Assembly (NCBI RefSeq): GCF_018448905.1
Contig: NZ_RCWA01000004.1
Span: 124,001-188,000, forward strand
Origin: Photorhabdus heterorhabditis
GTDB lineage: Bacteria > Pseudomonadota > Gammaproteobacteria > Enterobacterales > Enterobacteriaceae
Direction of reading: 5' to 3'
Length of the DNA stretch: 64,000 nucleotides
Of this stretch, positions 2,060-33,925 are shown one piece after another. Below the pieces are notes generated by a model. It saw only the letters and a list, made by a program, of their open reading frames with translations. It made no database searches and had not been told where the DNA came from. Numbering within the stretch: position 1 is the first letter of the stretch; each line of letters opens with the position of its first letter. Made by a program: the position numbers and the translations under genes.

Positions 2060-2062
2060 TTC

Positions 2063-7385: not shown

Positions 7386-7710
7386 TTTTACCTCCGGCAA
7401 TTCGGTGCTGCTGCACCATCTCTAATTTGCTGTAAAGCGCATCCAGCTTGGCTTCAATTACTGTTTGACCACGAATATAATCTTCACGGCGCACGTAATT
7501 CAGCGGCAAGTCAGCCTTAAACTGCATAAACTCACGTTCGAGCTGAGACCAATTGTCTACGGAATTTTTAAGCGCCTGCTCTAACGAGGCGTGTCTTTCC
7601 TCCTGTCGCTCTTCGGCTTTGCTGAATAACCACTTTGCGATACCAAAAACGAAACCAAGGAAAGAGAGCAGAAAACCTACGGCAGCCCAAAATTCAATCT
7701 GTAGTGTCAT
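7378..7710 (-). CDS. Mu gp25-like membrane-anchored coiled-coil protein (DUF2730)
   Basis: A 110-residue protein with one N-terminal membrane helix (WAAVGFLLSFLGFVFGIAKW, residues about 7-26) followed by a charged coiled coil. DUF2730 members sit between lysis and packaging genes in Mu-like phages and have no known job. The ATG at 7710 shares four bases with the Rz stop codon and has AAGGA upstream. A longer reading from 7770 would overlap Rz extensively and lacks a ribosome site. Confidence 0.8.
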   Translation of the reverse strand: MTLQIEFWAAVGFLLSFLGFVFGIAKWLFSKAEERQEERHASLEQALKNSVDNWSQLEREFMQFKADLPLNYVRREDYIRGQTVIEAKLDALYSKLEMVQQHRIAGGKND

Positions 7711-8330
7711 TGTTGTAATCCTTCGATGTAATCCAGCAGGCCATTGACCTGCGCTTTCAATGCAAGACACTGTTCTCCGTTATCGATGATATTGGCAAGG
7801 ATATCTCGTTGTGTGATACCGGATGGCCGTAGTTGGGCATCAGAGCTTTCATTTCCACGGGACGCTTCATCAGCGCCGGAGGTAACGGAGGCAGAGCGAG
7901 TTTGTTCACCGGATAGGCCGAGGGCGGCGTTGTATTGCTGCATGAAGCCACGAGTAAACACACAATTAACAGGATGAAACTGTTGTTTTTCATCCATCCA
8001 ACTCTGGGTAACATGGTCAATTTTCCTCTTCAGTTGTTGGTTCTGAGTGCGAAGTTGTTCAATATCGTTGAGATAATTGGCTTCTGCCTGATGCGCTGAG
8101 TTGACCTGCATTTGGTAACGTTGCTGCAAGGCATTGAGTGCTGCCAGTTCCTGTTCTGTCCGTCGCTTTTCCAGCAGAAGAAATTCGGTTTTCTGCTGTG
8201 CTAATGCGGTGTTTCCTGTCTCCGTTGCTTTCTGAAAGCCTATGGTATGGCCTCTCCAGTGAGCCAAAGCGAACATACCAATTAGCAACAAAATCAATAC
8301 AACAGGTTTAGCCCATAATTTAATTGGCAC
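7707..8330 (-). CDS. Rz-like inner-membrane spanin
   Basis: A 207-residue protein read from a GTG at 8330, which has GGAGG eight bases upstream. It has a single N-terminal membrane helix (VVLILLLIGMFALAHW), then a long alpha-helical periplasmic region with Gln/Glu/Lys heptads and AEANYLNDIEQLRTQNQQL near the middle. This is the layout of phage i-spanins, which join an outer-membrane lipoprotein partner to fuse the two membranes at lysis. The partner is encoded inside this gene in another frame (7757-7993). A longer upstream reading runs through the transglycosylase gene and is not believed. The start overlaps the transglycosylase stop. Confidence 0.8.
   Translation of the reverse strand: MPIKLWAKPVVLILLLIGMFALAHWRGHTIGFQKATETGNTALAQQKTEFLLLEKRRTEQELAALNALQQRYQMQVNSAHQAEANYLNDIEQLRTQNQQLKRKIDHVTQSWMDEKQQFHPVNCVFTRGFMQQYNAALGLSGEQTRSASVTSGADEASRGNESSDAQLRPSGITQRDILANIIDNGEQCLALKAQVNGLLDYIEGLQQ
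7757..7993 (-). CDS. Rz1-like outer-membrane spanin lipoprotein nested inside Rz
   Basis: A 78-residue ORF wholly inside the Rz coding region in a different frame. It starts MKNNSFILLIVCLLVASCS: a lipoprotein signal peptide with lipobox LVASC, cysteine at residue 18. A Pro-rich stretch follows (KLALPPLPPALMKRPVEM), typical of Rz1 proteins. Together with the i-spanin it would form the complex that disrupts the outer membrane in the last step of lysis. Embedded Rz/Rz1 pairs are well known, as in lambda; this copy shows the arrangement with no in-frame lesion. Confidence 0.8.
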   Translation of the reverse strand: MKNNSFILLIVCLLVASCSNTTPPSAYPVNKLALPPLPPALMKRPVEMKALMPNYGHPVSHNEISLPISSITENSVLH

Positions 8331-8937
8331 AGCTGGTACCTCCCCAAGCCAAATAACGGGGCGCGAGTTCCAGTAATATGCGTTTAGAATAATGTCGATT
8401 TTCTTTCCATGCTGGCGCTCTACGTCCAGCATTCTGAGATTCAACATGGCCGAACCAGACCCACGGATTGAGACCAACTGCCTCGGTTTTCTTCTTATCC
8501 CGTAGTAACCAGCCTAAGCCCCCGTTATAGGAAGACAGCACCATCGCCATTCTTTGGCACTTATCGACAGCTTTAATGCGTTGCCATAGCCAATGATCAT
8601 AGTGAACCATCGCCCGTATAGACCAGACTGGGTTGAAGGGATCTTTATTGGATAATTCAGGAATGCGTTGACTAATCCAATCCGCTGTTGCGGGCATAAA
8701 CTGGGCCATACCCTGAGCACCAATAGGCGAAATAGCTCGTGATTTCCAGTCACTCTCCTGATGCAACTGAGCGGCAAAATCAGCTACAGGCGCATTCAAT
8801 CCCCAGATCACACGAGAAGCACGTATTAAGTCATTGCGGTATTGCCGCGAACGGTGTGGCAGTTCGTCAGCCAATGCTAGGCTGACCATACCGCTACACC
8901 ACAACAGAACAATTCCGATAATCTGCCGCCAATTCAT
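8320..8937 (-). CDS. Phage lytic transglycosylase (SLT domain) with signal peptide
   Basis: A 205-residue peptidoglycan-cleaving endolysin. The N-terminus has a hydrophobic export segment ending ALA-D near residue 24. The catalytic domain carries HQESDW with the acid Glu near residue 60, then SPIGAQGMAQFMPATA near 70-86 and a late SYNGG near 138, all standard for the SLT goose-type lysozyme fold. Export through Sec means a holin may only need to depolarise the membrane. The ATG at 8937 follows AGGG; a GTG at 8943 overlapping the holin stop is an alternative. Confidence 0.88.
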   Translation of the reverse strand: MNWRQIIGIVLLWCSGMVSLALADELPHRSRQYRNDLIRASRVIWGLNAPVADFAAQLHQESDWKSRAISPIGAQGMAQFMPATADWISQRIPELSNKDPFNPVWSIRAMVHYDHWLWQRIKAVDKCQRMAMVLSSYNGGLGWLLRDKKKTEAVGLNPWVWFGHVESQNAGRRAPAWKENRHYSKRILLELAPRYLAWGGTSCAN

Positions 8938-8939
8938 AA

Positions 8940-9290
8940 TCACAACCCTGTAGCTACACTCAGACAGGTAGCGGCAACAATCAATGCACGGCGTATCAGA
9001 ACGGCTGCAAATACCATATGGTAGCCAGTCTGAACGGGATATTTTCCTTTTTTCATGAGTATTTCATCATATTTCAGATACTGACCGGGCCTTGCTTTCG
9101 GGAATAAACTACGATCAAGCCAGTACCCCAAGACAACAGCCAGAGCAATAAGCGACAATTTGTAGATCACAACAGGGACTTGTTGAGGGGAAACTAAACC
9201 GATAGTGATCAGCAATAGAACAGCTGTTAACAACCAGCCACCGAGGCGTAATTTTTTGATAAGTGATACAAACGATTTGAAAGTTTTCAC
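8940..9290 (-). CDS. Putative phage holin
   Basis: A 116-residue membrane protein, first gene of the lysis cassette. Three hydrophobic segments are visible: about residues 19-35 (LLTAVLLLITIGLV), 42-60 (VIYKLSLIALAVVLGYWL) and 90-113. The sequence YWLDRSLFPKARPG between the second and third recalls a holin family found in Mu-like phages. It has a GTG start with GGAG eight bases upstream. It would open the inner membrane to trigger lysis. No biochemical marker distinguishes it from another small membrane protein, so the call rests on topology and position. Confidence 0.7.
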   Translation of the reverse strand: MKTFKSFVSLIKKLRLGGWLLTAVLLLITIGLVSPQQVPVVIYKLSLIALAVVLGYWLDRSLFPKARPGQYLKYDEILMKKGKYPVQTGYHMVFAAVLIRRALIVAATCLSVATGL

Positions 9291-9399
9291 TGAACTGTCT
9301 CCGTAGTCGTTGATGGAAACAGTTTTGCCAATTTATCGGAAAAAGGATTTTAAAGGGCGTTAAGAGCGCATCAGAAAAGTAAAAGACAGGATAAGAGCG

Positions 9400-9505
9400 A
9401 CCTGCCTAACACTCGAATACTGGGTAGGCTATCAACTCACAGGTATGTACTGTGAGTCAACCGAGGCTCTTTCCGCTATTGATTATTGATGACCGGGAAA
9501 GCCTA
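9400..9505 (+). ncRNA. Candidate structured RNA or leader upstream of the phage methylase
   Basis: The 250-bp gap between holin and methylase holds three consecutive hairpins: GCCTA 9404-9408 with TAGGC 9425-9429; ACTCACAG 9435-9442 with CTGTGAGT 9450-9457 (7-base loop); and AGG plus CTTTCC 9464-9474 with GGAAAGCCT 9496-9504 around a two-base bulge. They end 36 bases before the methylase ATG. The strand is uncertain because a hairpin series folds on both, but the nearest gene it could control reads rightward. The family, if any, is not recognised. Confidence 0.4.
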
Positions 9506-9540
9506 ACTCATTTTCAGCTAATGGAAAAGGCTTACGGATA

Positions 9541-10311
9541 ATGAAAGAACAATCTTTACCTATCGTTCCGTGGATTGGTGGTAAACGCCGATTAGCAAAA
9601 CATATTTTACCGTTATTTCCTGAACATACCTGTTATGTCGAACCGTTCTGTGGTGCTGCCGCGCTGTATTTCCTAAAAGTACCGAGCAAATGTGAAGTGA
9701 TTAATGATCTTAATGGTGAGTTGGTGAATCTTTATCGCGTAATAAAACATCACTTGGAAGAGTTTGTCCGGCAATTTAAATGGGCATTGGTCAGCCGCCA
9801 AATATATAAATGGTTACAGATTACCCCCGAAGAAACGCTAACCGATATTCAGAGAGCAGCACGTTTCTACTATCTCCAAAAGCAGGCGTTTAGCGGTAAG
9901 GTTGCTGAACATACTTTCGGTACTTCCACCACCAGCCCACCGCGATTTAATTTACTCAGAATAGAAGAAGAGCTATCAATGGCTCACCTACGACTAGCAA
10001 GAACGATCATTGAAAATATGAACTGGGCACAATGCGTCCAACGGTACGACAGGCCACATACGCTGTTTTACTGTGATCCGCCGTATTGGGGTACAGAGGG
10101 ATATGGCATAGATTTCGGACTTGAGAACTATGATTTATTAGCAGAACTAGCACATACCATCCGAGGGGAAATGGTAATTTCGGTGAACGATATTCCAGAA
10201 ATGCGTAAGGCATTCAAAGGATTGAAAATGCAAGTAGTCAATATCGGTTACAACTTGAAAGTCACGGGGAAAGCTAAACAGAGTAAAGAGCTGATTATTT
10301 GTAATTTCTAA
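9541..10311 (+). CDS. Phage solitary DNA adenine-N6 methyltransferase (D12 class)
   Basis: A 256-residue Dam-like enzyme with no restriction partner nearby. Motifs run in alpha-group order: PWIGGKRRLAKHI (residues 9-21), SAM-binding EPFCGAAALYF near 34-44, INDLNGELVNLYR near 54-66, and catalytic DPPYWGTEGYG near 178-188. Motif I is EPFCGAAA where Dam-type enzymes usually have EPFxGxGxV, a mild departure. It probably methylates adenine to protect phage DNA or alter its expression. It is divergent from the late operon and convergent with the next genes, ending at a strong terminator. Confidence 0.9.
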   Translation: MKEQSLPIVPWIGGKRRLAKHILPLFPEHTCYVEPFCGAAALYFLKVPSKCEVINDLNGELVNLYRVIKHHLEEFVRQFKWALVSRQIYKWLQITPEETLTDIQRAARFYYLQKQAFSGKVAEHTFGTSTTSPPRFNLLRIEEELSMAHLRLARTIIENMNWAQCVQRYDRPHTLFYCDPPYWGTEGYGIDFGLENYDLLAELAHTIRGEMVISVNDIPEMRKAFKGLKMQVVNIGYNLKVTGKAKQSKELIICNF

Positions 10312-10318
10312 TAACCGA

Positions 10319-10354
10319 GAATGGCAAGGCAATATATTTGCTTTGCCATTTTTT
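10319..10354 (+). terminator. Rho-independent terminator after the methylase
   Basis: A 13-bp stem with one G-U pair (10320-10332 with 10338-10350), a 5-base loop and a run of six T follow the methylase stop by seven bases. Being nearly symmetrical, it may also stop the convergent transcript ending at 10359. Confidence 0.85.
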
Positions 10355-10358
10355 ACCT

Positions 10359-10796
10359 TTAACCTAAGCCAATAGAACGGGATACAAACTGTAAGCCTAT
10401 TCCGAGAGTTTGGCTCACTAAAGACCTTAACGCTTCTTTACTTTCAGTCTTCAATGTTTCCTTAATGCGATCACCTAATGGGGTTTCTAAGCTGTCAGGG
10501 ATTACTTTAAGAACTTCTAAACCTTCAGCCGTTAATACGGCTCTATGACAACCTTCAGAGCTCATAGTCCCTGCCAAGTAACCATTTGTCATGAGCCAAT
10601 CCACTGTATCCAGAAAAAATCTATGATCTTCTACTGTAGTACAAAGTTCGTCAGAGTATGTTCCATCAGAATATTGAAGGGATTCACCGATTACCTCTAT
10701 AGATAAAAGATCTATCTTTAAAGGAAATGACTCATATAGTTTCCCAAATATAATACCTACAATTTCATTAAACTTTTCTATGTTTGTAGTAGACAT
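10359..10796 (-). CDS. Hypothetical winged-helix-like phage accessory protein
   Basis: A 145-residue soluble protein, family not recognised. The middle (about residues 60-110) looks like a winged helix: EDHRFFLDTVDWLMTNGYLAG, a turn, then a beta hairpin ending RAVLTAEGLEVL. The C-terminal third is a basic amphipathic helix region. The ATG at 10796 has AGGAT four bases before the spacer; an upstream reading to 10877 overlaps the preceding ORF and lacks a site. It sits between methylase and repressor, where Mu-like phages carry cargo (morons). Confidence 0.65.
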   Translation of the reverse strand: MSTTNIEKFNEIVGIIFGKLYESFPLKIDLLSIEVIGESLQYSDGTYSDELCTTVEDHRFFLDTVDWLMTNGYLAGTMSSEGCHRAVLTAEGLEVLKVIPDSLETPLGDRIKETLKTESKEALRSLVSQTLGIGLQFVSRSIGLG

Positions 10797-10813
10797 AAAT
10801 ATCCTATTTGTTT

Positions 10814-10996
10814 CTAAAGTTTCAATTTCAATGTTCCACCAGGTACATTCTGTTGATCTAAACAAACAGATTGGCAAACTGATTTAGATATGGATAAAAT
10901 TGTTTCGTTATCCCCTATATCAAGAAAACAATTATTCCCATTGGCTATATAATCATTGGGAAGTTTGGCATTTGTGGGAATTAATAAGTTACGCAC
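10814..10996 (-). CDS. Hypothetical 60-residue protein
   Basis: A small ORF with a GTG start preceded by AAGGG at good spacing, ending 17 bases before the next gene in the same direction. It begins MRNLLIPTNAKLPNDYI. Composition is ordinary for a soluble protein with two central cysteines. No family recognised. Placement in a short co-directional run with its neighbours supports it being real. Confidence 0.45.
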   Translation of the reverse strand: MRNLLIPTNAKLPNDYIANGNNCFLDIGDNETILSISKSVCQSVCLDQQNVPGGTLKLKL

Positions 10997-11035
10997 AGTC
11001 CATACCCTTATATGAAATAAAAAATAACTATATTT

Positions 11036-11572
11036 TTAAGAATTTCTACGTTGTAAGATGACATCTATGGTATCAATAACATCCTGATTTTCATCTATTA
11101 TCCTATTTTCTATCTTCCTGTGCTTGTCCATTTTTTTTCCGCAAAGCGCTATCAACACGACCCAAGAAATAAAGATTATCAATGTTTTATCATTAAGTAC
11201 CAATACATTAGTAAATCCTTCACCGAAAAATATCATATAAGCGTTCCATAGGGCAAACGTGAATGCTATAAGCACGAGGCTAAGTAATAGCAGGCAAGGT
11301 GTATTGATGTAATAACGCCATTTAGCATCTTTATTTTCTATAAGTAATTCTCGTTTTATAGCAAGTAATTCCCGACTATTCCTTTCATGAAGCTCACGCG
11401 GGCGAGATGGCATGGGGTTAATATTGACGACTGAACCTACATGAATAGAGCCATGATTATTGCCACCAACGCTGATGGTTATTTGTCGTTCCTGCCCATC
11501 TTGGGGAAGTTGTTTAAGGCTATCAAAAACTTGTCCTGCTAATGTTTGTAATTCTTCATCTCTTCTGTCCAT
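11036..11572 (-). CDS. Hypothetical membrane protein, two TM segments
   Basis: A 178-residue protein, family not recognised. It has a charged N-terminal domain of about 85 residues, including a short glycine/asparagine beta segment (VGGNNHGSIHVGSVVNI), then two membrane helices near 92-112 and 130-148, and a basic helical tail (KKMDKHRKIENRI). It lies 17 bases downstream of the repressor gene and in the same direction, so it may be expressed in the lysogen. Lysogenically expressed membrane proteins beside a repressor are often superinfection-exclusion factors, but nothing in the sequence proves this. Confidence 0.65.
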   Translation of the reverse strand: MDRRDEELQTLAGQVFDSLKQLPQDGQERQITISVGGNNHGSIHVGSVVNINPMPSRPRELHERNSRELLAIKRELLIENKDAKWRYYINTPCLLLLSLVLIAFTFALWNAYMIFFGEGFTNVLVLNDKTLIIFISWVVLIALCGKKMDKHRKIENRIIDENQDVIDTIDVILQRRNS

Positions 11573-11588
11573 GCAAATCCTTTATTTT

Positions 11589-12005
11589 TTAATGATTAAC
11601 AACCAGTTTTAATACTCTGTCAATTCTACTGTCATCGACAACCGACTCTTTAATTAAAAAGTTATATATTTTTGATGATTGCAGGACGAGTTCATCGGGC
11701 GTCCAGCGGCGATTAGCCTGTTGTGCCATCGAATCTAGTTTATGAACAATTTTTCCCAGTAATTCTGTATCTATCTCACTGTTTTTGTAAGCGGTAGAGG
11801 CTGACTGTTGAACTTGCCCTGTTATTAGGTACAACACATCAAGACCCGCTTTTGCCCAAAGGCTTATAGCATCAGCCCCTGGTGCAGATTCGTCTTTTTC
11901 CCACCTTATCTGTGATTTTCTTGATGCGCCAACCATCTCCGCGAAATCGGACTGACTAAACCCCAATCGCTCACGCTCTTTTTTTAATCTCTCACCAAGA
12001 GACAT
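11589..12005 (-). CDS. Phage repressor-like XRE-family HTH regulator
   Basis: A 138-residue protein with an N-terminal XRE helix-turn-helix: LGERLKKERERLGFSQSDFAEMVGA, then RKSQIRWEKDESAPGADAISLWAKAGLDVLYLITG. The C-terminal part is helical and lacks the Ser/Lys autocleavage motifs of LexA-like repressors, so induction would not be by RecA-driven self-cleavage. It diverges from the Ner-like gene across an operator region (12023-12067), the normal layout for the lysogeny switch of transposable phages. The ATG at 12005 is preferred; an in-frame TTG lies four codons upstream. Confidence 0.8.
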   Translation of the reverse strand: MSLGERLKKERERLGFSQSDFAEMVGASRKSQIRWEKDESAPGADAISLWAKAGLDVLYLITGQVQQSASTAYKNSEIDTELLGKIVHKLDSMAQQANRRWTPDELVLQSSKIYNFLIKESVVDDSRIDRVLKLVVNH

Positions 12006-12022
12006 TTTTGTCACCAAAACCC

Positions 12023-12067
12023 TTTACAAGTCCCATTAATGGGACAATAATGTCATGTATTGTACAA
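12023..12067 (+). promoter_or_regulatory. Phage early promoter with palindromic operator in the spacer
   Basis: TTTACA (12023-12028) and AATAAT (12046-12051) are spaced by exactly 17 bases, a good sigma-70 promoter facing the Ner-like gene. The spacer is almost wholly the perfect palindrome GTCCCATTAATGGGAC (12030-12045). A second, smaller palindrome TTGTACAA lies at 12060-12067. Bound repressor would cover the promoter. The opposing repressor promoter is not clear from sequence. Confidence 0.7.
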
Positions 12068-12095
12068 ACATCATTGCATTACCGGAGGCCATAGC

Positions 12096-12284
12096 ATGAC
12101 ACCCGAGAAAATTAAAAGCCGCTTTCATCAACACGGCATCACTATTACCCAATGGGCACAGGAGAACGGGTATTCCCGCGAAGCTGTATACCGAGTTCTT
12201 AATGGACAATCCAAAGCTAATTACGGAAAGGCCCATGAAATAGCTGTAAAGCTAGGTCTGAAAACGCCAAGTTTAGGCATTTAA
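12096..12284 (+). CDS. Ner/Cro-like phage DNA-binding protein
   Basis: A 62-residue HTH protein: KIKSRFHQHGITITQWAQ, then GYSREAVYRVLNGQSKA, then a short helix with HEIAVKLGLK. This is the small negative regulator type that sits first in the early operon of transposable phages and opposes the repressor. The ATG has GGAGG eight bases upstream. Transcription would start just downstream of the promoter at 12023-12051. Confidence 0.8.
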   Translation: MTPEKIKSRFHQHGITITQWAQENGYSREAVYRVLNGQSKANYGKAHEIAVKLGLKTPSLGI

Positions 12285-12350
12285 ATTTAGCCTAACTATT
12301 TTATCACTTTATGTAACAGATTATCACATATTGAAAAGGGAGAATGTGAC

Positions 12351-12659
12351 ATGCGCAAAATTAACGTTTCCAGTTCTGGTACGCGCATATTACGAGTTCT
12401 TAAGGCTCTACGTGGTCATTCCTTGTCTGGGATGAGTAATGGTGAATTAGCGGAATTACTGGAGGAATCTCCTACAAATATTAATCGTGCACTAAATACA
12501 TTAATAGAAGAAGGGCTGGCGCAAAAACTGGGTAGCGGCAGATATGCACCCGGTATGCAATTACTGCAAATAGCACAATCGTTCTCAAATGAAATGGCTA
12601 ACACCCAAGCCAAAATTACAGAAATGAATCAGCGCGTTTTGGCTGGTAGCAGAAATTAA
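12351..12659 (+). CDS. IclR-type winged-helix phage regulator
   Basis: A 102-residue protein made almost only of an IclR-like DNA-binding domain: RILRVLKALRGHSLSG, then SNGELAELLEESPTNINRALN, then LIEEGLAQKLGSGRYAPG as the wing. A helical tail of about 30 residues replaces the IclR effector-binding domain. Similar short IclR-like proteins occur in the early operons of BcepMu-type prophages. Function unknown; probably local control. A good AGGGAG site precedes the ATG. Confidence 0.75.
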   Translation: MRKINVSSSGTRILRVLKALRGHSLSGMSNGELAELLEESPTNINRALNTLIEEGLAQKLGSGRYAPGMQLLQIAQSFSNEMANTQAKITEMNQRVLAGSRN

Positions 12660-12678
12660 TTAACAAGAGATTCATACA

Positions 12679-13635
12679 ATGGCACGCTCAAAAAATACAA
12701 CATCAGTAAAACTAGCCGAAGATGTTCAACTTGCTGACGATCTGCAGGTCAATCTCAACGCTATGACAACACACCGCCTGCAAATCATGGAACAGTTTGG
12801 AGATGGTCTGCCGTATGAACGTGAACGTATCGTTCACGAAACCCGTTTCTATATGGCTCAGAGTGCTGAAGCGATGTTGGAAGCTGGGAAGCGCCTCATT
12901 ATTCTTAAAGAGAATGAACCTCATGGTGAATTTGTTGACATCGTTAAGGATCAACTTGGCTTGGAACCCCGAATTGCTCAAAAAATGGCACAAGCTGCAC
13001 TCAAATTTCTTTCACCTGGATTAGAAACAAAAGCGAAAACGTTTTCGCTTTTGGGACGTTCCAAACTGTATGAGTTGATGCTTGAAGATGATGATGAACT
13101 GTCAGAATTGGCTGAAGGTGGCACTGTAGCAGGTTTGACATTAGATGATATTGATCGCATGTCTGTCCGCGAACTACGTAAGACCCTGCGTGATACACGC
13201 GCTGATCTGGAAATCTCACGCCAGACGGTGCAGGAAAAAAAGGAACTTGTTAGTAATTTGATTGAGGAGAAATCTCAAATCCAGCACAAACTTCAGCGCC
13301 GAATCAATCATGAAAAACCTGAAGAAGAAGGTGCAGCTTTGACACAAGAGGTTAATTCATTGTCTTTTGCTATTGATGCCGCTATCACCAATCTTTTCAA
13401 TGGATTTGAAACGCTTAATGACCATACCAGACGCACCGATATTAGCCATGTTGGGTTTATGGCAGGCGTACTCGATGACCTTGAAGTCAAAATTCGTAAC
13501 CTGCGTAATCACTTTAATCTGCCTGAGTACAGAGAACACAGCATTGTTCCTGATTGGGCTAAAGAAGGTGCGAAAGCAGAAGAGGAAAGATTCGAACGAC
13601 CAGAATGGATGGATAAGGAAGAGGCACATGAATAA
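12679..13635 (+). CDS. DUF3102 family phage protein
   Basis: A 318-residue soluble protein. The N-terminal half has the DUF3102 pattern: a helix with ETRFYMAQSAEAMLEAGKRLIILKE (split), then HGEFVDIVKDQLGLEPRIAQKMAQAA, which resembles a ParB-like or KilA-like DNA-associated helical bundle. The middle (residues about 160-215) is a coiled coil (RADLEISRQTVQEKKELV). The family is common in early operons of transposable prophages, without a known role. It lies directly upstream of the transposase. Confidence 0.8.
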   Translation: MARSKNTTSVKLAEDVQLADDLQVNLNAMTTHRLQIMEQFGDGLPYERERIVHETRFYMAQSAEAMLEAGKRLIILKENEPHGEFVDIVKDQLGLEPRIAQKMAQAALKFLSPGLETKAKTFSLLGRSKLYELMLEDDDELSELAEGGTVAGLTLDDIDRMSVRELRKTLRDTRADLEISRQTVQEKKELVSNLIEEKSQIQHKLQRRINHEKPEEEGAALTQEVNSLSFAIDAAITNLFNGFETLNDHTRRTDISHVGFMAGVLDDLEVKIRNLRNHFNLPEYREHSIVPDWAKEGAKAEEERFERPEWMDKEEAHE

Positions 13636-13678
13636 ATCTGAATTGAAAAAAATGCTTGAAAAGAAACTGAAGAAATAA
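13628..13678 (+). CDS. 16-residue lysine-rich micro-ORF
   Basis: ATG at 13628 overlaps the end of the DUF3102 gene in another frame and reads MNKSELKKMLEKKLKK before a stop at 13678, eleven bases before the transposase start. The peptide would be a perfect basic amphipathic helix. It may serve only to couple translation into the transposase, or be accidental. Confidence 0.3.
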   Translation: MNKSELKKMLEKKLKK

Positions 13679-13688
13679 GGGCAATAAC

Positions 13689-15473
13689 ATGAATACCACA
13701 ATGACCGAACGATTAGTTTCTATTGCACAGGCAGCACATAAAGCCGGACATGGCAGTAAAGAAGCAATATATCGGGCGGCTTGTGAAGAGCTGTGTATGT
13801 CACGTTCAACATTGATTAAAAAACTTGGTGAAGTTTCTGGCAAAAAGCCACGCAAGAAACGTTCTGATGCAGGTAATAGCGCGCTGACACGTGAAGAAGC
13901 AACTTTGATCTCAGGGGTATTGATGGAGGCCACTCGTAATACAGGGAAACGGTTATATAGCCTCGAACAGGCCGTTAATGATCTGCGTTCAAATAGCCTG
14001 ATTAATGCAGGCCATATTGATACCAAAACAGGCGAATTTTCTCCGTTATCCATTGACGCGATTAGTCGTGCATTGCGCCAGTACAAACTTCATCCTGAAC
14101 AGTTGAAAGTGCCTGCGACTAGCCTACAATTGGCTAGCCTGCATCCCAATCATGTCTGGGAATTAGACGCCTCAATTTGTGTGCTATATTACCTAAAAAA
14201 CCCTAATAAAAACAATGGGATTGACAGTGGATTACGCATGATGCCTGTGGCTGAATTTAATAAAAATAAGCCGAAAAATCTGGCTCGTATCATTAATGAT
14301 CGCGTTTGGTCGTTTGAATTAACAGATCACACAAGTGGCTGGATATATGTTGAATACTTATTTGGCGGTGAAACCAGTCAGAATTTTACTTCTGTGTTGA
14401 TTAACGCAATGCAAGATCGTGGTGACGCAGATGTATTACACGGTGTACCCCAAATTTTATTTACTGACCCCGGTTCTGCTTTGACAGCACCTACACTACG
14501 TAACTTGTGTAAGGCCCTAGGCATTCAAATGATACAACACAAGGCCCGTAACGCCCGTGCTACGGGCTCTGTTGAAAAAGCACGTGACATCATCGAACGC
14601 AATTTCGAATCCGGTTTACGCTTTCGACAGGTTGATAATATTGATGAACTTAACCGTCTGGCACGGCTATGGCGTATGAAGTTTAACCGCAGTGCAATAC
14701 ATAGCCGACATGGACAAACCCGTACAGATTGCTGGCTAAAAATCACAGCAGAACAGTTAGTAAAAGCACCTGCCATTAATGTTTGTCGTGAATTGGCAAT
14801 TGGCACCCCAGAAAGCCGTAAAGTACAGTCAACCTTGCGAGTATCTTTCAGGGGACGTGAGTATGACGTCAGTACCGTTCCTAGTGTGAGTGTTGGTGAT
14901 TCTATCATGATCATCCGCAATCCGTGGCGTGACGAAGAGGCACAGGTAGTCATTACTGGTGAAGATGGCTTTGATGTTTTCCATCTTGTTAATGAAGTCA
15001 CTAAAGATGAGTACGGCTTTGCCATCGGAGCACCTGTAATTGGTAGTGAATTCCAAGCCATTCCTCAAACAATTGCACAACGTAATTTAGCCGAAGTTGA
15101 ACAGAAAATCATGGGGACAAACAACACAACTGAAACTGAAATAGCACGTAAATTGAAAACACTTCCCCTCAATGGTCGGTTTGATCCATATTTGGATATT
15201 GAACGTAATGATGCACCAACGTATATGCCAAAACGTGGACAAGCCTCTACGGTACATAGCCCACGAATTGAACAGCTTATGAACCCCGTTGATGTTGTCA
15301 AAATTTTACGTGAACGGTTTCAATTACATGGTAAGACATGGCGTGGTGAATTTTATCAGCAAATAGTTAAACGCTTTCCTAATGGTGTTCCAACAGATCA
15401 AATTGATGAATTGGTTGATGAATTCATAGGGAAATCAACAACTGTTGTATGCAATATTGTTAACGGTAATTAA
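13689..15473 (+). CDS. Phage DDE transposase (MuA/TniA-like, rve core)
   Basis: A 594-residue recombinase that cuts the phage ends and strand-transfers them in replicative transposition. The N-terminus holds helix-turn-helix modules for end binding (SKEAIYRAACEELCMSRSTLIKKL). The catalytic core shows WELDASI (first Asp, near residue 155), LFTDPGSAL (second Asp, near 258) and GSVEKARD (Glu, near 293), the DDE triad on an RNase H fold. A C-terminal Mu-type beta barrel and helical tail follow, the latter for contact with the MuB-like ATPase encoded next. Ribosome site AAGGG is well placed. Confidence 0.9.
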   Translation: MNTTMTERLVSIAQAAHKAGHGSKEAIYRAACEELCMSRSTLIKKLGEVSGKKPRKKRSDAGNSALTREEATLISGVLMEATRNTGKRLYSLEQAVNDLRSNSLINAGHIDTKTGEFSPLSIDAISRALRQYKLHPEQLKVPATSLQLASLHPNHVWELDASICVLYYLKNPNKNNGIDSGLRMMPVAEFNKNKPKNLARIINDRVWSFELTDHTSGWIYVEYLFGGETSQNFTSVLINAMQDRGDADVLHGVPQILFTDPGSALTAPTLRNLCKALGIQMIQHKARNARATGSVEKARDIIERNFESGLRFRQVDNIDELNRLARLWRMKFNRSAIHSRHGQTRTDCWLKITAEQLVKAPAINVCRELAIGTPESRKVQSTLRVSFRGREYDVSTVPSVSVGDSIMIIRNPWRDEEAQVVITGEDGFDVFHLVNEVTKDEYGFAIGAPVIGSEFQAIPQTIAQRNLAEVEQKIMGTNNTTETEIARKLKTLPLNGRFDPYLDIERNDAPTYMPKRGQASTVHSPRIEQLMNPVDVVKILRERFQLHGKTWRGEFYQQIVKRFPNGVPTDQIDELVDEFIGKSTTVVCNIVNGN

Positions 15474-15711
15474 TTTTTCATGGTGTATATTAAGGAAAAG
15501 AAAAATGGCAATTAAAATTCATGATCCACTGCTTTCACTGACCACTTAAAATACAACTGAGGTTTATTTATAAAAGTGACCCAGTTTGTTTTCGTGGAAC
15601 TCATTATAACGTAAGAAGTATACAGGATATTTTGCCAGGGAATGATGTTGCTATCTCTTATTATCAATAGCATATGCAGAAATAAAGATAGCCGCTTAAC
15701 GGGGGATTATT
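15474..15711 (+). other. Gap between transposase and ATPase genes with a decayed small ORF
   Basis: An ATG at 15505 opens a 14-codon ORF (MAIKIHDPLLSLTT). After it, another frame stays open to a TAG near 15670 and reads like protein (VCFRGTHYNVRSIQDILPG). This may be the ruins of one small gene broken by stops and frameshifts, but the pieces are too short to identify. Confidence 0.3.
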
Positions 15712-16884
15712 ATGCTGGTGTTTAAACAGCAGTTACAAGAACATCAGTTAACGCAAAGTGCAGCAGCAAGTGCGGCAGGAATTTCAGCGGCGGCGTTGGC
15801 TCAAATTGTTAATCACAATATATGGCCACGACAGAACGCAGATGCAATTCGTCAGCGTATTACTGATTTCTTGGCAAAAAGAGGTATCGATACCGCAAAA
15901 AGTTTTGAGGTGGTACAAACAACCAATAAATCAGATATCTATACCGATAATAAAAATACAACCCTCATTTCTGAGGAGGAAAACATGTTACTAAAAAAAC
16001 AAGTGTTATTTCCAGCTACGAAAAAGCACTTTGGTTTATTTCGTGATCCATTTGAAGATAGTGCAATTCAAAGTGCTGAAGATGTTTTTGTGACTCCAGA
16101 TAGCCGTTATGTACGGGAAACCATGTATCAAACAGCCCGCTATGGTGGTTTTCTGGCAGTATCAGGGGAATCAGGTTCAGGTAAAACGACACTGCGTCGT
16201 GATCTTATTGACCGTATTAACAGGGAAAATACCCCCGTTATTGTTATTGAACCCTATGTATTAGCAATGGAAGACAATGATATAAAAGGTAAAACCTTGA
16301 AAGCATCAAACATTGTTGAAGCTATTGTGAATACCTTAGCGCCATTGGAAAACTTGAAACGATCGCCTGAAGCACGCTTCCGCCAGTTGCACAAGATATT
16401 GAAAGACAGTTCACGGGCTGGCTATCAACATGTGTTAATAATAGAAGAAGCACACTCGTTGCCTTTACCAACATTAAAACACCTTAAACGATTCTTTGAA
16501 CTGGAAGATGGATTTAAAAAACTGTTATCGATCATTTTGATTGGTCAGTCTGAGCTGGAATTGAAGCTATCTGAACGTAATCAAGAGGTTCGTGAAGTAG
16601 TGCAACGTTGTGAAGTTGTTAATTTGTTTCCTCTTAATGATTATCTGGAAACATTTCTGGATTTTAAATTTAGTCGCGTAGGCATGAAGACTAACAAGAT
16701 TTTAGATAATAGCGTTATTGGTGCTATCCGTGACCGTTTATGTCTTAGTCGGCATAGTGGTAAAGAAACTGTTAGTTTATTATATCCATTAGCTATCGGA
16801 AACTTGATTATTGCAGCTATGAACATGGCTGCAATTAATGAGATACCTATGGTTGATGCCAATATTATTCGCAGTGTTAGCTAA
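15712..16884 (+). CDS. MuB-like transposition ATPase (AAA, ExeA-like)
   Basis: A 390-residue target-selection ATPase. The N-terminal 60 residues form a cryptic HTH (FKQQLQEHQLTQSAAASAAGIS) as in MuB. The AAA core has Walker A GESGSGKTT near residues 152-160, Walker B HVLIIEEAHSLP near 241-252 and a sensor-1-like IILIGQSELE near 277. A helical lid domain completes it. It would bind target DNA, confer target immunity and stimulate the DDE transposase encoded upstream. GGGGGA ribosome site. No lesion seen. Confidence 0.9.
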   Translation: MLVFKQQLQEHQLTQSAAASAAGISAAALAQIVNHNIWPRQNADAIRQRITDFLAKRGIDTAKSFEVVQTTNKSDIYTDNKNTTLISEEENMLLKKQVLFPATKKHFGLFRDPFEDSAIQSAEDVFVTPDSRYVRETMYQTARYGGFLAVSGESGSGKTTLRRDLIDRINRENTPVIVIEPYVLAMEDNDIKGKTLKASNIVEAIVNTLAPLENLKRSPEARFRQLHKILKDSSRAGYQHVLIIEEAHSLPLPTLKHLKRFFELEDGFKKLLSIILIGQSELELKLSERNQEVREVVQRCEVVNLFPLNDYLETFLDFKFSRVGMKTNKILDNSVIGAIRDRLCLSRHSGKETVSLLYPLAIGNLIIAAMNMAAINEIPMVDANIIRSVS

Positions 16885-29194: not shown

Positions 29195-30088
29195 ATGAAA
29201 GATTTATTACGTACCGATATGCTAACAACATTCATTCATGTTGCCCGCTCACAGAGTTTTTCTGCCGTTGCGCGTTTACAAGGTATGGCTGCATCTTCTA
29301 TCACTCGTCAAATAGACAACCTTGAACAGACGCTAGAGACAAAACTATTCTTTCGCTCTACCCGTGGTTTATCACTGACTGATGCAGGGGAGATTTTGTT
29401 TTCAAGGGCGCAAGATATTGTAAATAACCTTGTCGATGTTCAGGCTGAGTTAGCGGCGTTGAATGGCGAGCCGCAAGGGACATTACGCATAGCTTGCCTG
29501 CCAACGTTTGGGCGTCAGCATATTATTCCGATGCTGGCAGAACTATTTACGCGATATCCTAAAATTCAGGTTGAACTTGATCAAACAGAACGTATGACTG
29601 ATCCTGTTAGGGATCGTCTCGACGCCGTTATTCGTGTTGGAGAATTAAAAGACAGCACGCTTTATTCAAAACGCATCTCTATACAAACTTGGATTATTTG
29701 TGCTAGCCCAAGTTATATTCAAAGGCATGGAATGCCGACAACACTTACTGAACTGGGTGAACATTATTTACTTGATAAACATCATGACCCTGCTGGTATT
29801 TGCTGGTCACGCTATCGCAGTGCTATTAATTTCAGTGATAATAATAGGATCTTTCGTAGTGACGACTTTGAAACATTGAGAATGGCCGCAGTGAGTGGAT
29901 TTGGAATAGCGCTTCTGCCTAATTGGGTGGTATCCACAGATATTCGTTCTGAAAAACTTATCCCTCTATTTGATGATCCCGATGGACGTAAAGAAGATAT
30001 TTATTTACTGCGGGCACTTGCTCACCCGCCAGCAAAATTAACCGTATTTATATCGTTATTGCAGGAGTGGCTTACTAGGATTGTTTAG
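29195..30088 (+). CDS. LysR-family regulator divergent to the MFS gene
   Basis: A 297-residue LysR protein. The HTH is at residues 8-65 (MLTTFIHVARSQSFSAVARL, ASSITRQIDNLEQTLETKLF, RSTRGLSLTDAG). The effector-binding domain follows (GTLRIACLPTFGRQHIIPML, SGFGIALLPNWVV). The intergenic 180 bases to the MFS gene would hold its binding sites. A decayed copy of its 3' half lies at 33298-33645. Confidence 0.9.
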   Translation: MKDLLRTDMLTTFIHVARSQSFSAVARLQGMAASSITRQIDNLEQTLETKLFFRSTRGLSLTDAGEILFSRAQDIVNNLVDVQAELAALNGEPQGTLRIACLPTFGRQHIIPMLAELFTRYPKIQVELDQTERMTDPVRDRLDAVIRVGELKDSTLYSKRISIQTWIICASPSYIQRHGMPTTLTELGEHYLLDKHHDPAGICWSRYRSAINFSDNNRIFRSDDFETLRMAAVSGFGIALLPNWVVSTDIRSEKLIPLFDDPDGRKEDIYLLRALAHPPAKLTVFISLLQEWLTRIV

Positions 30089-30202
30089 TTATGATGGATA
30101 GATTTATATTACTACTATAATTTTTACTTATGTGTTAGGTTACATACTTAACTGACTTAGAATTTATTAGGTTAAATTATAAAAAATTAGGATGGTAATT
30201 TT

Positions 30203-30682
30203 ATGTCATACATGATTTATTTGTCTTTGAATGGTAAAAAACAAGGGCTGATCTCTGCTGGGTGTTCAACCCTAGATTCAATAGGAAACAGGTATCAAAA
30301 TGGTCACGAAAACCAAATACAAGTACTGAGTTTAAACCACACAATAACGCGCCAGCAGAATGTCAGCCATCAACCAATACAATTCATTAAACCCATAGAT
30401 AAATCATCACCATTATTAGCTATGGCAATAGATTCAAACGAATCTCTAAATGGTACTTTTGTTTTTTACAGAACAGGTCAAGCAGGACAATTGGAATTAT
30501 TCTATGAAGTAAAAATCACTGAAGCCACTATCACGGATGTTTCTTGTATATACCCGCATTCTATAAATGATTTTGAAGCCATGCCATATGAAAGAGTTAC
30601 ACTCAACTATAAATCTATCTCATGGAATCATATAACAGCCGGCACATCTGCTTATAGCATATGGGAAGATAGAAATTATTAA
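30203..30682 (+). CDS. hcp: Hcp, type VI secretion tube/effector-carrier protein (orphan)
   Basis: A 159-residue Hcp1-family protein that stacks as hexameric rings in the T6SS tube. Family features: MSYMIYLSLNGKKQGLISAG at the start, ENQIQVLSLNHTITRQQN near 36-53, HQPIQFIKPIDKSSPLLAMA near 57-76, and LELFYEVKITEATITDVS near 97-114. No toxin extension is fused. No other T6SS structural gene is in the window, so it is an orphan copy. It faces a convergent toxin-immunity pair across a strong hairpin. AGGATGG precedes the ATG. Confidence 0.92.
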   Translation: MSYMIYLSLNGKKQGLISAGCSTLDSIGNRYQNGHENQIQVLSLNHTITRQQNVSHQPIQFIKPIDKSSPLLAMAIDSNESLNGTFVFYRTGQAGQLELFYEVKITEATITDVSCIYPHSINDFEAMPYERVTLNYKSISWNHITAGTSAYSIWEDRNY

Positions 30683-30699
30683 TAAACATAAAACCCTAG

Positions 30700-30726
30700 T
30701 TGTGTCGAGTCGGCTACTCGACACAA
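30700..30726. terminator. Bidirectional terminator hairpin after hcp
   Basis: TTGTGTCGAGT (30700-30710) and its exact complement (30716-30726) around a five-base loop; ATTAAGC follows on the plus strand and CTAGGGTTTTA on the minus. It is repeated at 31865-31891 by the local duplication. Confidence 0.75.
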
Positions 30727-30747
30727 TTAAGCATAAAGAGCATATGC

Positions 30748-31146
30748 TTAGTAACAAAGTGAAATATCCTTAACATACTTATTTGGAGCCATCCATGATG
30801 ATTTACTACAGATTAAATATCCTTCAGATTTTAATTCATCATCAACATATAAAGACATAAATAGAGTAAGGATAAAACCGGCTATTGATACATATGAAAT
30901 ATAATCGCCTATTTTGCCATTAAGATTCTTTGTCCTATTTAACGCGATCATTAATAATGCATAAGCAAGATTAATAAGCAAAGGACTAAACCAAATAAAA
31001 CCCGCACTCTTCCATGAGAATGTAATGACGCTATCACGTCTAAAGAAACCTATATAATCACTCAATGAGAAAAATATAAATAACAAGGCCATAAAAATAA
31101 GCAACGACATGCCTAAATATAGTTTTGTTTTGCTTGTATTATCCAC
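30748..31146 (-). CDS. Membrane immunity-like protein, copy 1 (DUF1240-like)
   Basis: A 132-residue protein with three hydrophobic segments (about residues 9-29, 48-70 and 82-101). It resembles a family I remember as DUF1240 from Yersinia and Photorhabdus. The GTG start overlaps the stop of the toxin copy by eight bases. Sequence from about residue 75 to the end is almost identical to copy 2, while the first 70 residues differ at many positions. A membrane protein coupled to a toxin with a hydrophobic hairpin fits an immunity protein; this role is inferred. Confidence 0.65.
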   Translation of the reverse strand: MDNTSKTKLYLGMSLLIFMALLFIFFSLSDYIGFFRRDSVITFSWKSAGFIWFSPLLINLAYALLMIALNRTKNLNGKIGDYISYVSIAGFILTLFMSLYVDDELKSEGYLICSKSSWMAPNKYVKDISLCY

Positions 31147-31783
31147 GACTAAATCTACCCCACATATTAAAAAGTTGATCCGGATGGTATGGTGTCGGAT
31201 TTACCTTTCTATTCTTTATGTTTTTAATTATAGTTTCACTGATTTTAAAATGATCATCTAACCAATATAAAGCAAGAGAAGTTAAAAACCCAATAGCAAA
31301 AACGCCAAGAGCTACAAGCATAAGACTTCCTCCTACAGCTAAGAGTGGAGAAACCAATAGAGTATTAGCAGCCGTAGCAATACCTACTGAGATAGCTAAT
31401 TTTGCGGCATCCGTTGTTAAGTTAACAAACAAATCGACCAATCCATATTGATCTTTAAATATTAACTCAACTAGTCTATACCTTTCATCTTTCAAGCTGC
31501 TGCTTTGTTGGCTGCGTTCACTTACCCCAGTCACATCGTTATCTATGCTCCTGGGGATGCGTTCACTTGCCGCCGCACTGCAACTTGAAATCTATTGGGT
31601 ATATATGCAGCTGAGAATACTATACCGAATCTAGCACCTTGGGCAATTCCAGCTTCAATACCTAGTGTACCTACCCCAAAAGACACTATCTGGGGATTAT
31701 TAGCAAGATATCTTGTGGTGTTTAAATAATTTCTTACACCCGGGTAACCTGACAACTTTATATATTTTCTTCCATCAATCCAT
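31139..31783 (-). pseudogene. Toxin copy 1: C-terminal part, interrupted by an ERIC
   Basis: The sequence matches the toxin at 32310-33182 from DGRKYIKLSGYPGVRNYLN near 31780 to the C-terminus at 31139. The first 130 residues are missing; at about 31783 the DNA changes to a fragment of the hcp 3' end. A full ERIC (31479-31601) splits the remainder after FSAAY and shifts the frame. Differences from the intact copy cluster just after the ERIC (VELIFKDQ, NLTTDAAKLAISV). It is probably not expressed as a toxin but could donate sequence by recombination. Confidence 0.85.
31479..31601. repeat. ERIC element, 123 bp, inside toxin copy 1
   Basis: Full-length copy (core CACTTACCCCAGTCACATCG and CTCCTGGGGATGCG). 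The uninterrupted site is present in the sister gene at 32641-32660 (AGTCTATATGCAG). Comparison gives a net insertion of exactly 125 bases at TA. Confidence 0.95.
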
Positions 31784-31784
31784 C

Positions 31785-31847
31785 TCATGGAATTATATAA
31801 CAGCCGGCACATCTGCTTATAGCATATGGGAAGATAGAAATTATTAA
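31785..31847 (+). pseudogene. hcp 3' fragment left by the duplication
   Basis: These bases repeat the last 21 codons of hcp (ending YSIWEDRNY stop) with one base change, followed by the same hairpin (31865-31891). There is no start codon or upstream part. Confidence 0.9.
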
Positions 31848-31864
31848 TAAACATAAAACCCTAG

Positions 31865-31891
31865 TTGTGTCGAGTCGGCTACTCGACACAA
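31865..31891. terminator. Second copy of the hcp-type terminator hairpin
   Basis: Identical to the hairpin at 30700-30726 (11-bp perfect stem, 5-base loop). It now lies between immunity copy 2 and toxin copy 1 and would stop the leftward transcript before copy 1. Confidence 0.7.
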
Positions 31892-31912
31892 TTAAGCATA
31901 AAGAGCATATGC

Positions 31913-32317
31913 TTAGTAACAAAGTGAAATATCCTTAACATACTTATTTGGAGCCATCCATGATGATTTACTACAGATTAAATATCCTTCAGATTTTAAT
32001 TCATCATCAACATATAAAGACATAAATAGAGTAAGGATAAAACCGGCTATTGACATATATGAAATATAATCGCCTATTTTGCCATTAAGACGTTTCACCT
32101 TACCCAATGAGATTCTATATAAAATATAGGCAATATAAATCAACACAGGAGTAAACCAAATAGCTCCAGCGCTTTTCCATGAGAATGTAATAACACCATC
32201 ACGCTTAAAAAAACCAACATAATCATTCAATGAAAAAAATATAGATAACCCTGCCATAAAAAGAAGCAATAAAATTCCTAAGTATAATTTAGTTTTATTT
32301 TCATTTGTATTATCCAC
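31913..32317 (-). CDS. Membrane immunity-like protein, copy 2 (DUF1240-like)
   Basis: A 134-residue paralogue of copy 1 with the same three hydrophobic segments. Residues from about 77 onward are the same as copy 1 (NGKIGDYISYMSIAGFILTL versus YVSIAG); the N-terminal half diverges (ENKTKLYLGILLLLFMAGLS). The GTG start overlaps the intact toxin stop by eight bases, so toxin and immunity are translationally coupled. Position and topology suggest protection of the inner membrane against the toxin encoded just upstream. Confidence 0.7.
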   Translation of the reverse strand: MDNTNENKTKLYLGILLLLFMAGLSIFFSLNDYVGFFKRDGVITFSWKSAGAIWFTPVLIYIAYILYRISLGKVKRLNGKIGDYISYMSIAGFILTLFMSLYVDDELKSEGYLICSKSSWMAPNKYVKDISLCY

Positions 32318-33182
32318 GACTTAATCTACCCCACATATTAAAAAGTTGATCCGGATGGTATGGTGTCGGATTTACCTTTCTATTCTTTATGTTTTTAATT
32401 ATAGTTTCACTGATTTTAAAGTGATCATCTAACCAATATAAAGCAAGAGAAGTTAAAAACCCAATAGCAAAAACGCCAAGAGCTACAAGCATAAGACTTC
32501 CTCCTACAGCTAAGAGTGGAGAAACCAATAGAGTATTAGCAGCCGTAGCAATACCTATTGAGATAGCTAATTTTGCACCATCGATTGTTAAGTTAACAAA
32601 CAAATCAACCAATCCATATTTATCTTTAAATATTAATTCAATTAGTCTATATGCAGCTGAGAATACTATACCGAATCTAGCACCTTGGGCAATTCCAGCT
32701 TCAATACCTAGTGTACCTACCCCAAAAGACACTATCTGGGGATTATTAGCAAGATATCTTGTGGCGTTTAAATAATTTCTTACACCCGGGTAACCTGACA
32801 ACTTTATATATCTTTTTCCATCCTTACCAAAATACTCTGTTGCTTCCACACTGAAGCTTCTTAAATCATTTACTATTCTTGCCACTCCAAAGGAATCGTA
32901 GATATTACCAGCAAAAGATGAAACTGGATCAGTATATGAATAGATAGTTTTGATATTATTCTTCCATGAGTTATAGAAATTATGATCTAGTGTTTTCATA
33001 TAATCTATAGCTTCATCCTCTGTCAATAAAGCGATAACTTCTTGGTTTAGTTTAAATTGATTTTCCAATTCCAATAGCATGCGGTTATGTTTTTGATCTT
33101 CTATTTGTTTCTTAAAGTTAAGATGGTCTTCATATCTATAATCATCTTCAACAAATGTTTTTAACCGTGGATCATATTTCAT
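32310..33182 (-). CDS. Putative T6SS-associated membrane-active toxin
   Basis: A 290-residue protein from the ATG at 33182, which has GGAG seven bases upstream. The first 100 residues are charged and helical (MKYDPRLKTFVEDDYRYED). Residues about 125-175 contain GKRYIKLSGYPGVRNYLNAT and GIEAGIAQGARFG. Residues about 200-255 form a long hydrophobic block (AISIGIATAANTLLVSPLL, LMLVALGVFAIGFLTSLALY) that could insert as a helical hairpin, as in pore-forming colicins. A short basic tail ends it. No enzyme motif is visible. Its place beside hcp and a membrane immunity gene points to an interbacterial effector; no such function is established for the family. Confidence 0.7.
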   Translation of the reverse strand: MKYDPRLKTFVEDDYRYEDHLNFKKQIEDQKHNRMLLELENQFKLNQEVIALLTEDEAIDYMKTLDHNFYNSWKNNIKTIYSYTDPVSSFAGNIYDSFGVARIVNDLRSFSVEATEYFGKDGKRYIKLSGYPGVRNYLNATRYLANNPQIVSFGVGTLGIEAGIAQGARFGIVFSAAYRLIELIFKDKYGLVDLFVNLTIDGAKLAISIGIATAANTLLVSPLLAVGGSLMLVALGVFAIGFLTSLALYWLDDHFKISETIIKNIKNRKVNPTPYHPDQLFNMWGRLSRG

Positions 33183-33297
33183 CTTGTAACTCCACATATA
33201 TTTATAGTTAATTGATATTGCATATCTTATCGGACTTGACTATTTTTTCTTTAGTTTTTCTGAACTTTTGTGAACTGGCTCAAGTTTCCCTATTGAG

Positions 33298-33645
33298 GCT
33301 GGCAGAACTATTTACGCGATATCCTAAAATTCAGGTTGAACTTGATCAAGCAGAACGTTTGACTGATCCCGTTAGGGATCGTTTAACTTCAATAATGATA
33401 ACAGGATCTTTCGTAGTGATGACTTTGAAACATTGAGAATGGCCGCAGTCAGTGGATTTGGGGTAGGGCTTTTGCCTGATTGGGTGGTATCGACGGATAT
33501 TCATTCTGGAAAACTTATGCCTTTATTCAATGATCCCGATGGACGTAAAGAAGATATTTATTTATTGTGAGTACTTGCTCACCCGCCAGAAAAATTAATA
33601 GCATTTATGTCGTTATTGCAGGAATGTCTTGCTAAGGTTGTTTAG
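33298..33645 (+). pseudogene. Decayed 3' half of a LysR gene (copy of 29195-30088)
   Basis: From GCTGGCAGAACTATTTACGC to the TAG at 33645 this follows the LysR gene at 29533-30088 at high identity. About 205 bases are deleted after the codons for DPVRDRL, and a CGG codon has become TGA near 33570. There is no promoter or 5' half. Confidence 0.9.
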
Positions 33646-33925
33646 TTATTATTTATACATTTGCGATCTTTTAATGTTGATTTTTAAATAAATTATAGTG
33701 TCGATTTTATTTGTTGAAATAATCATATCTATGTAATTTTTGGGTTAATGCAATAAATTAAAAGTAATAATTTAGAGTTATAAGATGTAGTTAAAATTGA
33801 TATTTAACTATTCTCTATGTATTCGATTCATTTATTGTTGTTGAGCTTTCAGAGAAATATATTTATTCTTCTATATTGTTTTTTATTTATAGCAATATCA
33901 TTATTAATGAATATAGAGGTTTATT

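Follow-up and report, generated by a model that had tools for sequence, protein, structure and literature searches.

The locus described here lies in a 64,000-nucleotide stretch of the Photorhabdus heterorhabditis genome (family Enterobacteriaceae; RefSeq assembly GCF_018448905.1, contig NZ_RCWA01000004.1, positions 124,001 to 188,000, hereafter the window, with its first letter as position 1) and combines an hcp gene of the type VI secretion system (T6SS) with two units of a candidate toxin-immunity module. Its order is hcp, a first immunity gene (ImmA), a broken toxin copy, an hcp tail, a second immunity gene (ImmB), an intact toxin gene and a remnant of a LysR-type regulator gene. The hcp gene (tssD; 30203-30682, forward strand) encodes 159 residues (TIGR03344, E = 5.6e-58; PF05638, E = 3.9e-24) and converges on ImmA (30748-31146, reverse strand; 132 residues; PF06836, E = 1.2e-28) across a stem-loop at 30697-30729 (-19.1 kcal/mol, with equally stable structures in 0 of 200 shuffles), which is probably a two-way terminator and was not flagged in a terminator scan. 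ImmA shares 8 bases with the C-terminal piece of the broken toxin copy (31139-31480, reverse strand; profile positions 171-285). This copy has lost its 5' part, and what remains is split by a dispersed repeat of ~118 bp (31481-31598, recognized by matches to its core pattern) from an internal piece (31599-31776, reverse strand; profile positions 115-172) with 98% identity to 32645-32822. Beyond it lie the 3'-end remnant of a second hcp (31774-31847, forward strand; hcp profile positions 135-159; 98% over 300 nt with the sequence from 30609 onward), a second copy of the same stem-loop (31862-31894), ImmB (31913-32317, reverse strand; 134 residues; PF06836, E = 1.5e-28), the intact toxin gene (32310-33182, reverse strand; 290 residues) and the LysR remnant (33295-33662, forward strand), which duplicates parts of 29530-30105 (86% over 280 nt and 95% over 88 nt). 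By blastn and repeat analysis, 31774-32651 matches 30609-31480 (91%), so that hcp faces a displaced unit while the intact pair sits behind the leftover hcp tail, at a distance of 1634 bp from hcp to the intact toxin. The initial annotation, made from the letters of the window, had described hcp as meeting a single leftward toxin-immunity operon across a shared terminator; the stem-loop is indeed there, but the meeting is not direct, as the displaced second unit intervenes, and the immunity gene at 30748-31146, the broken toxin copy and the hcp remnant had been overlooked.

The frame of the intact toxin ends at 32310, and its ATG at 33182 agrees with the MKYDPxL start common to close relatives. 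The protein consists of an N-terminal segment (residues 1-60), a middle region, the motif D201xxK204, a hydrophobic hairpin (205-251), D252 and a C-terminal tail. The long hydrophobic block near the C-terminus that had been noticed at first inspection is real, with a hydrophobic stretch at residues 205-252 and a hydropathy peak of 2.44 at 230-248, and so is the eight-base overlap of the toxin gene with ImmB (32310-32317). Neither Pfam nor NCBIfam convincingly matched any member of alignment A4 (25 sequences; best E = 0.0073 and 0.0045, unrelated families), which is why the effector looks undescribed; A4 comprises the window protein and 24 homologues, including a PAAR-fused Lelliottia protein and a Vibrio plasmid protein. 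According to passages of Fridman et al. 2020 (PMC7046647), the Tme effectors are marked by a near-invariant DxxK followed by a transmembrane helix flanked by another D, and most proteins encoded downstream of them link to DUF1240, for which the name Tmi was proposed. The window protein carries this signature as D201-G-A-K204, the stretch 205-252 and D252. All three charged residues (D201, K204 and D252) are unchanged in 25 of 25 A4 sequences, and a looser form of the pattern fits 63 of the 64 toxin frames that were extracted, with one miss (locus L103) due to a D-to-E change. Vibrio homologues, one of which (L082) is in A4, were found at 26.5-27% identity. A DUF1240-like gene lies directly downstream of 59 of 65 toxin copies, as judged with a profile built solely from proteins of the window's genome; the misses are at L079, L082, L135 and L138, with two more at L136. 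The same passages describe periplasmic toxicity for both Tme1 and Tme2 (Tme2 in the cytoplasm also slows growth), loss of membrane potential and entry of propidium iodide; either effector is neutralized by its cognate Tmi but not by that of the other. Family membership predicts the same action for the window pair. The cassette had been called undescribed, a claim that does not survive the 2020 publication of periplasmic toxicity, potential loss and Tmi rescue.

The initial annotation had likened the topology to that of a pore-forming colicin and its immunity protein. A true relative of these colicins (PF01024) that had moved to T6SS delivery would account for the layout, in which a membrane immunity protein accompanies a toxin with a single long hydrophobic hairpin towards its C-terminus, and in an hhalign comparison with 12 colicin domains the hairpins did align (42 columns, probability 41%, single-comparison E = 2.9e-4). 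However, this alignment was limited to hydrophobic residues, PF01024 matched neither the window protein (E <= 1) nor any of the 25 A4 sequences (E <= 0.1), and a profile search of the PDB returned no colicin chain at E up to 10. The profile searches for a colicin-type fold thus yielded nothing firm; common descent with colicins is very unlikely, whereas an analogy of mechanism remains reasonable. A new shared N-terminal delivery domain was also considered and found unsupported: the two N-terminal types, each searched in 198 genomes of the family, gave matches in 8 and 9 of them, and the strong ones lay in toxin-length frames or short fragments, as judged by frame length and with not every frame aligned. 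Among related loci, L209 (2144-2740) contains a 198-residue frame in which a Tme N-terminus is fused straight onto a DUF1240 immunity protein, apparently a deletion scar with the toxic part lost in frame, and at L210 a toxin with an internal deletion adjoins an intact DUF1240 gene.

Tmi proteins are expected to have a DUF1240 domain with three to six membrane helices. ImmB fits this description through its DUF1240 match and an AlphaFold2 model (mean predicted local distance difference test score, pLDDT, 84; predicted template modelling score, pTM, 0.69) in which three long helices (3-37, 47-70 and 79-109) are followed by a small C-terminal portion. The early description of a three-helix membrane protein is therefore backed by the model but not by the hydropathy scan, in which ImmA has three segments whereas ImmB has two. 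The positive residues that precede helix 1 and those that separate helices 2 and 3 suggest a cytoplasmic N-terminus and a periplasmic C-terminal part. C115 and C133 are invariant in 53 aligned immunity sequences, and a disulphide in the periplasmic part is possible. ImmA and ImmB share 75% nucleotide identity in their first 75 codons and 99% in the remainder, which suggests a recent exchange of the 3' part.

The window Hcp covers positions 1-166 of the 167 in TIGR03344 and ends at residue 159, with no C-terminal toxin extension. T6SS genes in this genome include 5 VipB and 13 hcp matches; all five VipB matches lie on other contigs (C63, C3, C1, C34 and C65, none on C4), and the gene is rightly called orphan. 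At the protein level it is 92% identical to both Hcps of the C17 modules, 77% to the C1-module Hcp, 59% to that on C26 and 20-37% to six others (C65, C1:232k, C3, C1:181k, C9 and C63), the C1:35k and C7 Hcps being left unranked for their short frames (52% over 63 and 68% over 25 residues). An Hcp subtype common to Tme modules would fit a dedicated carrier, without proving one. Across 33 Photorhabdus stretches (a census of toxin copies that cover 211 or more profile positions in a single frame; L045 and L112-L114 lie outside it), a near-full hcp was found within 5 kb of 22 of 36 toxin copies, on the opposite strand in 22 of 22. It lay on the immunity side in 8 cases, which is the arrangement of the window, and on the 5' side of the toxin in the other 14. 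At other loci of the family, where a 1.5-kb stretch was covered, a near-full hcp accompanied 14 of 25 toxin copies and lay directly upstream on the same strand in 6 of the 25. The chance expectation per locus is about 2.7%, a rough figure, and copies within an array share one hcp and are not independent. Annotated neighbours show the order hcp-tox-DUF1240 in Rahnella and tox-DUF1240-hcp in Providencia, and the Lelliottia homologue is a PAAR fusion located in a T6SS cluster. The linkage of hcp to such toxins in other genomes is thus present both in Photorhabdus and in other genera, and the original suggestion of a membrane-depolarising T6SS effector tied to hcp appears well supported by the DUF1240/Tmi partner, the DxxK-transmembrane-D signature and this linkage. 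Collectively, judging from sequence and gene context, the locus is very probably an antibacterial Tme/Tmi effector-immunity module of the T6SS, kept with its own Hcp.

Toxin matches were present in 13 of 13 Photorhabdus genomes and in 52 of 392 genomes sampled from the family, and the window's genome alone holds 5 full-length toxin copies and 15 DUF1240 matches, the latter including fragments. For comparison of complete toxins we distinguished type A, 13 toxins starting with MKYD or MRYD from Photorhabdus and Xenorhabdus, and type B, initially 13 toxins passing a text filter that dropped the complete toxins of L087, L097 and L099; L104 and L108 were at first left out of type B as more divergent, and the widened sets contain 16 and 18 toxins. 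Type-B loci frequently carry immunity arrays, the longest of which, at L086, has ten DUF1240 genes (one broken) behind a single toxin. At L086, L091, L096 and L105 a single Tme toxin is followed by 5-10 DUF1240 genes, a few of them broken, and at L093 (G002 contig 3, 198500-214500) one intact hcp and one hcp remnant are surrounded by a tandem series of five toxin-immunity units, with three toxins scored broken. Two C17 Tme modules at L042 (155-5055) stand just downstream of an ATPase and further genes, a region that looks like a Photorhabdus virulence cassette with payload genes. Tme-like proteins also occur in 52 plasmid records, 33 of them from Vibrio, including several from shrimp, while a tblastn search for carriage by phages gave no match at E <= 0.01 in 50,697 phage records.

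Decay is visible in the array itself. In 37 Photorhabdus stretches 19 of 47 toxin copies and 11 of 95 immunity genes were scored broken, the former count being an overestimate: the toxins scored at L108 and L109 are uninterrupted open frames, and at both L084 and L112 a contig end truncates one copy. Together with the broken toxin copy of the window, the toxin count would suit an array that is a decaying relic with the module no longer in use. Against this stand the intact toxin, both intact immunity genes and the intact hcp of the window, the 84 of 95 immunity genes that are whole, and the constraint on ImmB, whose comparison with its P. australis counterpart (imm3) gave a nonsynonymous rate (dN) of 0.029 and a synonymous rate (dS) of 0.115; we consider a disused relic highly improbable. 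Selective decay of toxins relative to immunity genes was examined but is not claimed, since toxins are ~2.2 times longer and some of the breaks are contig ends or profile splits. A similar array occurs in P. australis on two contig ends (L084 and L112), both of which stop inside the repeated part, and seems to have one unit more. On the simplest reading the duplication is older than the split of the two species, although the array may instead have been transferred between them. The core of the dispersed repeat that interrupts the broken toxin has 7 matches in the window (at 18966, 22896, 31508, 38701, 46580, 48262 and 55172; up to 3 mismatches) and none in 100 shuffles, and the stretch 31477-31606 has further copies at L042, L084 and L112. 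Elsewhere in the window, open reading frames at 1109-16884 resemble a Mu-like prophage (transposase, ATPase, portal- and terminase-like proteins), as judged from reading the frames alone.

We compared rates of change along the toxin in both lineages. The segment from DxxK to the last D changed fastest, with a mean dN of 0.51 in type A and 0.37 in type B and no rise in dS, compared with 0.20-0.24 (A) and 0.08-0.16 (B) in the other regions. In a sliding-window analysis dN/dS peaked at residues 205-251 in both lineages (0.77 in A, 0.79 in B), whereas the highest window clear of the hairpin reached 0.52 in A (61-107) and 0.22 in B (1-47). When type B was widened to 16 and 18 toxins, hairpin dN/dS fell to 0.71 and 0.62 and was still the highest, the other regions lying at 0.15-0.31. 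As a control, the membrane segments of a major facilitator superfamily (MFS) transporter from the same genus gave a dN/dS of 0.12 (6 of 9 matched copies used, 3 with stop codons dropped; 4 of 13 genomes had no match); therefore, hydrophobic segments are not generally free to change. On the immunity side the last third is conserved (dN/dS 0.18 in both lineages) and the earlier parts are more variable (0.33-0.95, both extremes stemming from one 15-codon segment), a pattern that the ImmA-ImmB pair of the window displays directly.

The hairpin also varied with the cognate immunity protein. After correction for the rest of the toxin, hairpin distance tracked immunity distance with a partial correlation (partial r) of 0.75 in type A (13 loci) and 0.50 in type B (12 loci), values reached by 0 of 2000 permutations in either lineage. 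A repeat for type B gave 0.50, 0.46 and 0.44 at 12, 15 and 17 loci (2, 1 and 0 of 2000 permutations). L086 was excluded from these tests for want of an intact immunity gene next to its toxin. In type B, neither the N-terminal nor the middle region tracks immunity (-0.29 and -0.20). That the hairpin changes faster than the rest of the toxin and varies with the immunity protein appears to be new: its variability is unmentioned in the family literature that we found, in searches that were not aimed at it by name and covered few subscription papers.

A number of observations weigh against the interpretation developed here. The AlphaFold2 model of the toxin (29 sequences) was poor and unusable (pLDDT 48, pTM 0.29), and membership in Tme is argued through the motif, the DUF1240 partner and homologues. 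A Foldseek search with the immunity model returned no significant solved relative (109 hits at E <= 10, with the best 50 listed, and 0 of the 109 at E <= 0.001). Displaced ImmA, compared with imm2 of P. australis (dN 0.105, dS 0.298), shows looser constraint than ImmB compared with imm3. In the census above, the stretch covered lacks a near-full hcp for 14 of the 36 toxin copies; among these, L084 and L088 have hcp remnants only, and L084 stops at a contig end. Relaxed and diversifying selection cannot be told apart by a dN/dS below 1. In type A the N-terminus (0.34, 32 of 2000 permutations) and the middle region (0.40, 4 of 2000) track immunity too, below the hairpin, and in type B the tail tracks it better than the hairpin does (partial r 0.72, 0.77 and 0.76).

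In view of this last result, some or even all of the tracking could be due to co-inheritance of the toxin 3' end and the immunity gene beside it. If exchange of cassettes made the hairpin hitch-hike with its neighbour while the hydrophobic segment was under weak constraint, both its change and its tracking would arise with no recognition at all, and the 8 bases shared by toxin and immunity genes are in keeping with such a linkage. On the other hand, the slowly changing MFS membrane segments are at odds with weak constraint, the tail from D252 is more conserved than the hairpin (mean dN 0.20 in A and 0.16 in B vs 0.51 and 0.37), and the type A tail tracks immunity weakly and not clearly (0.16, 100 of 2000 permutations). 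Hitch-hiking without recognition is therefore rather unlikely, and cassette exchange is nevertheless the main rival. The toxin's 3' part is passed on, or evolves, jointly with the immunity gene, and hairpin recognition is the reading that we favour for what may underlie this. More specifically, we tentatively propose, as a possibility still somewhat short of probable, that the hairpin is the hypervariable specificity element of Tme, read in the membrane by variable Tmi helices, with paired diversification taking place on an Hcp-linked tandem array that stores displaced immunity genes as resistance. Our confidence in this proposal was lowered slightly because the values for the widened type B sets were weaker.

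In the mechanism that we envisage for the Tme/Tmi module, the T6SS would carry the effector, probably with the window Hcp or a near-identical copy, into the periplasm of a neighbouring cell, where the hairpin 205-251, held between D201xxK204 and D252, would insert into the inner membrane and collapse the membrane potential. The membrane immunity protein, predicted to have its N-terminus inside, three helices and a periplasmic C-terminal segment, would block the hairpin in the membrane and so protect kin. The locus itself grows and decays via tandem duplication; in the window one unit has been displaced, with its toxin broken by truncation and repeat insertion and its immunity gene still intact. 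A seemingly undescribed cassette is thereby placed in a published effector family. How Tmi blocks Tme, which passages of Fridman et al. (PMC7046647) leave to later study, becomes a testable question, as two natural lineages point to the same ~47 residues.

Set beside known systems, the window effector resembles pore-forming colicins in combining a hydrophobic hairpin with a membrane immunity protein, and differs from them in having no family-level match, an hcp gene for delivery and no receptor or translocation domain recognized by Pfam. Hcp-ET proteins are Hcps fused to C-terminal toxins. They are named in passages of PMC12469244 and share with the window an Hcp outside the main cluster that is linked to an effector, whereas the 159-residue window Hcp has no extension and its toxin is a separate gene. 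The closest likeness is to Tme1/Tmi1 and Tme2/Tmi2 of Vibrio parahaemolyticus, which, in the passages of PMC7046647, have the same DxxK-transmembrane-D C-terminus, DUF1240 immunity directly downstream and a neighbourhood of T6SS genes; the locus is a further member of this family, with an instructive duplicated layout. Unlike Tme1 and Tme2, window-type toxins have two other N-termini (MKYDPxL... and ...YMGDFLRG...), and their Photorhabdus loci differ in that hcp is encoded on the opposite strand, units occur in tandem and immunity arrays are long. The RIX domain, the arginine-rich N-terminus of the Tme1 type, is described in passages of PMC10435454 as exclusive to Vibrionaceae and Moritellaceae. 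Finally, Ssp4, Ssp6 and Tse4 are, like Tme, T6SS effectors that depolarise membranes, and in the passages of PMC12669606 and PMC9558359 they are set apart by keeping overall membrane integrity, whereas Tme1 and Tme2 permeabilise the membrane.

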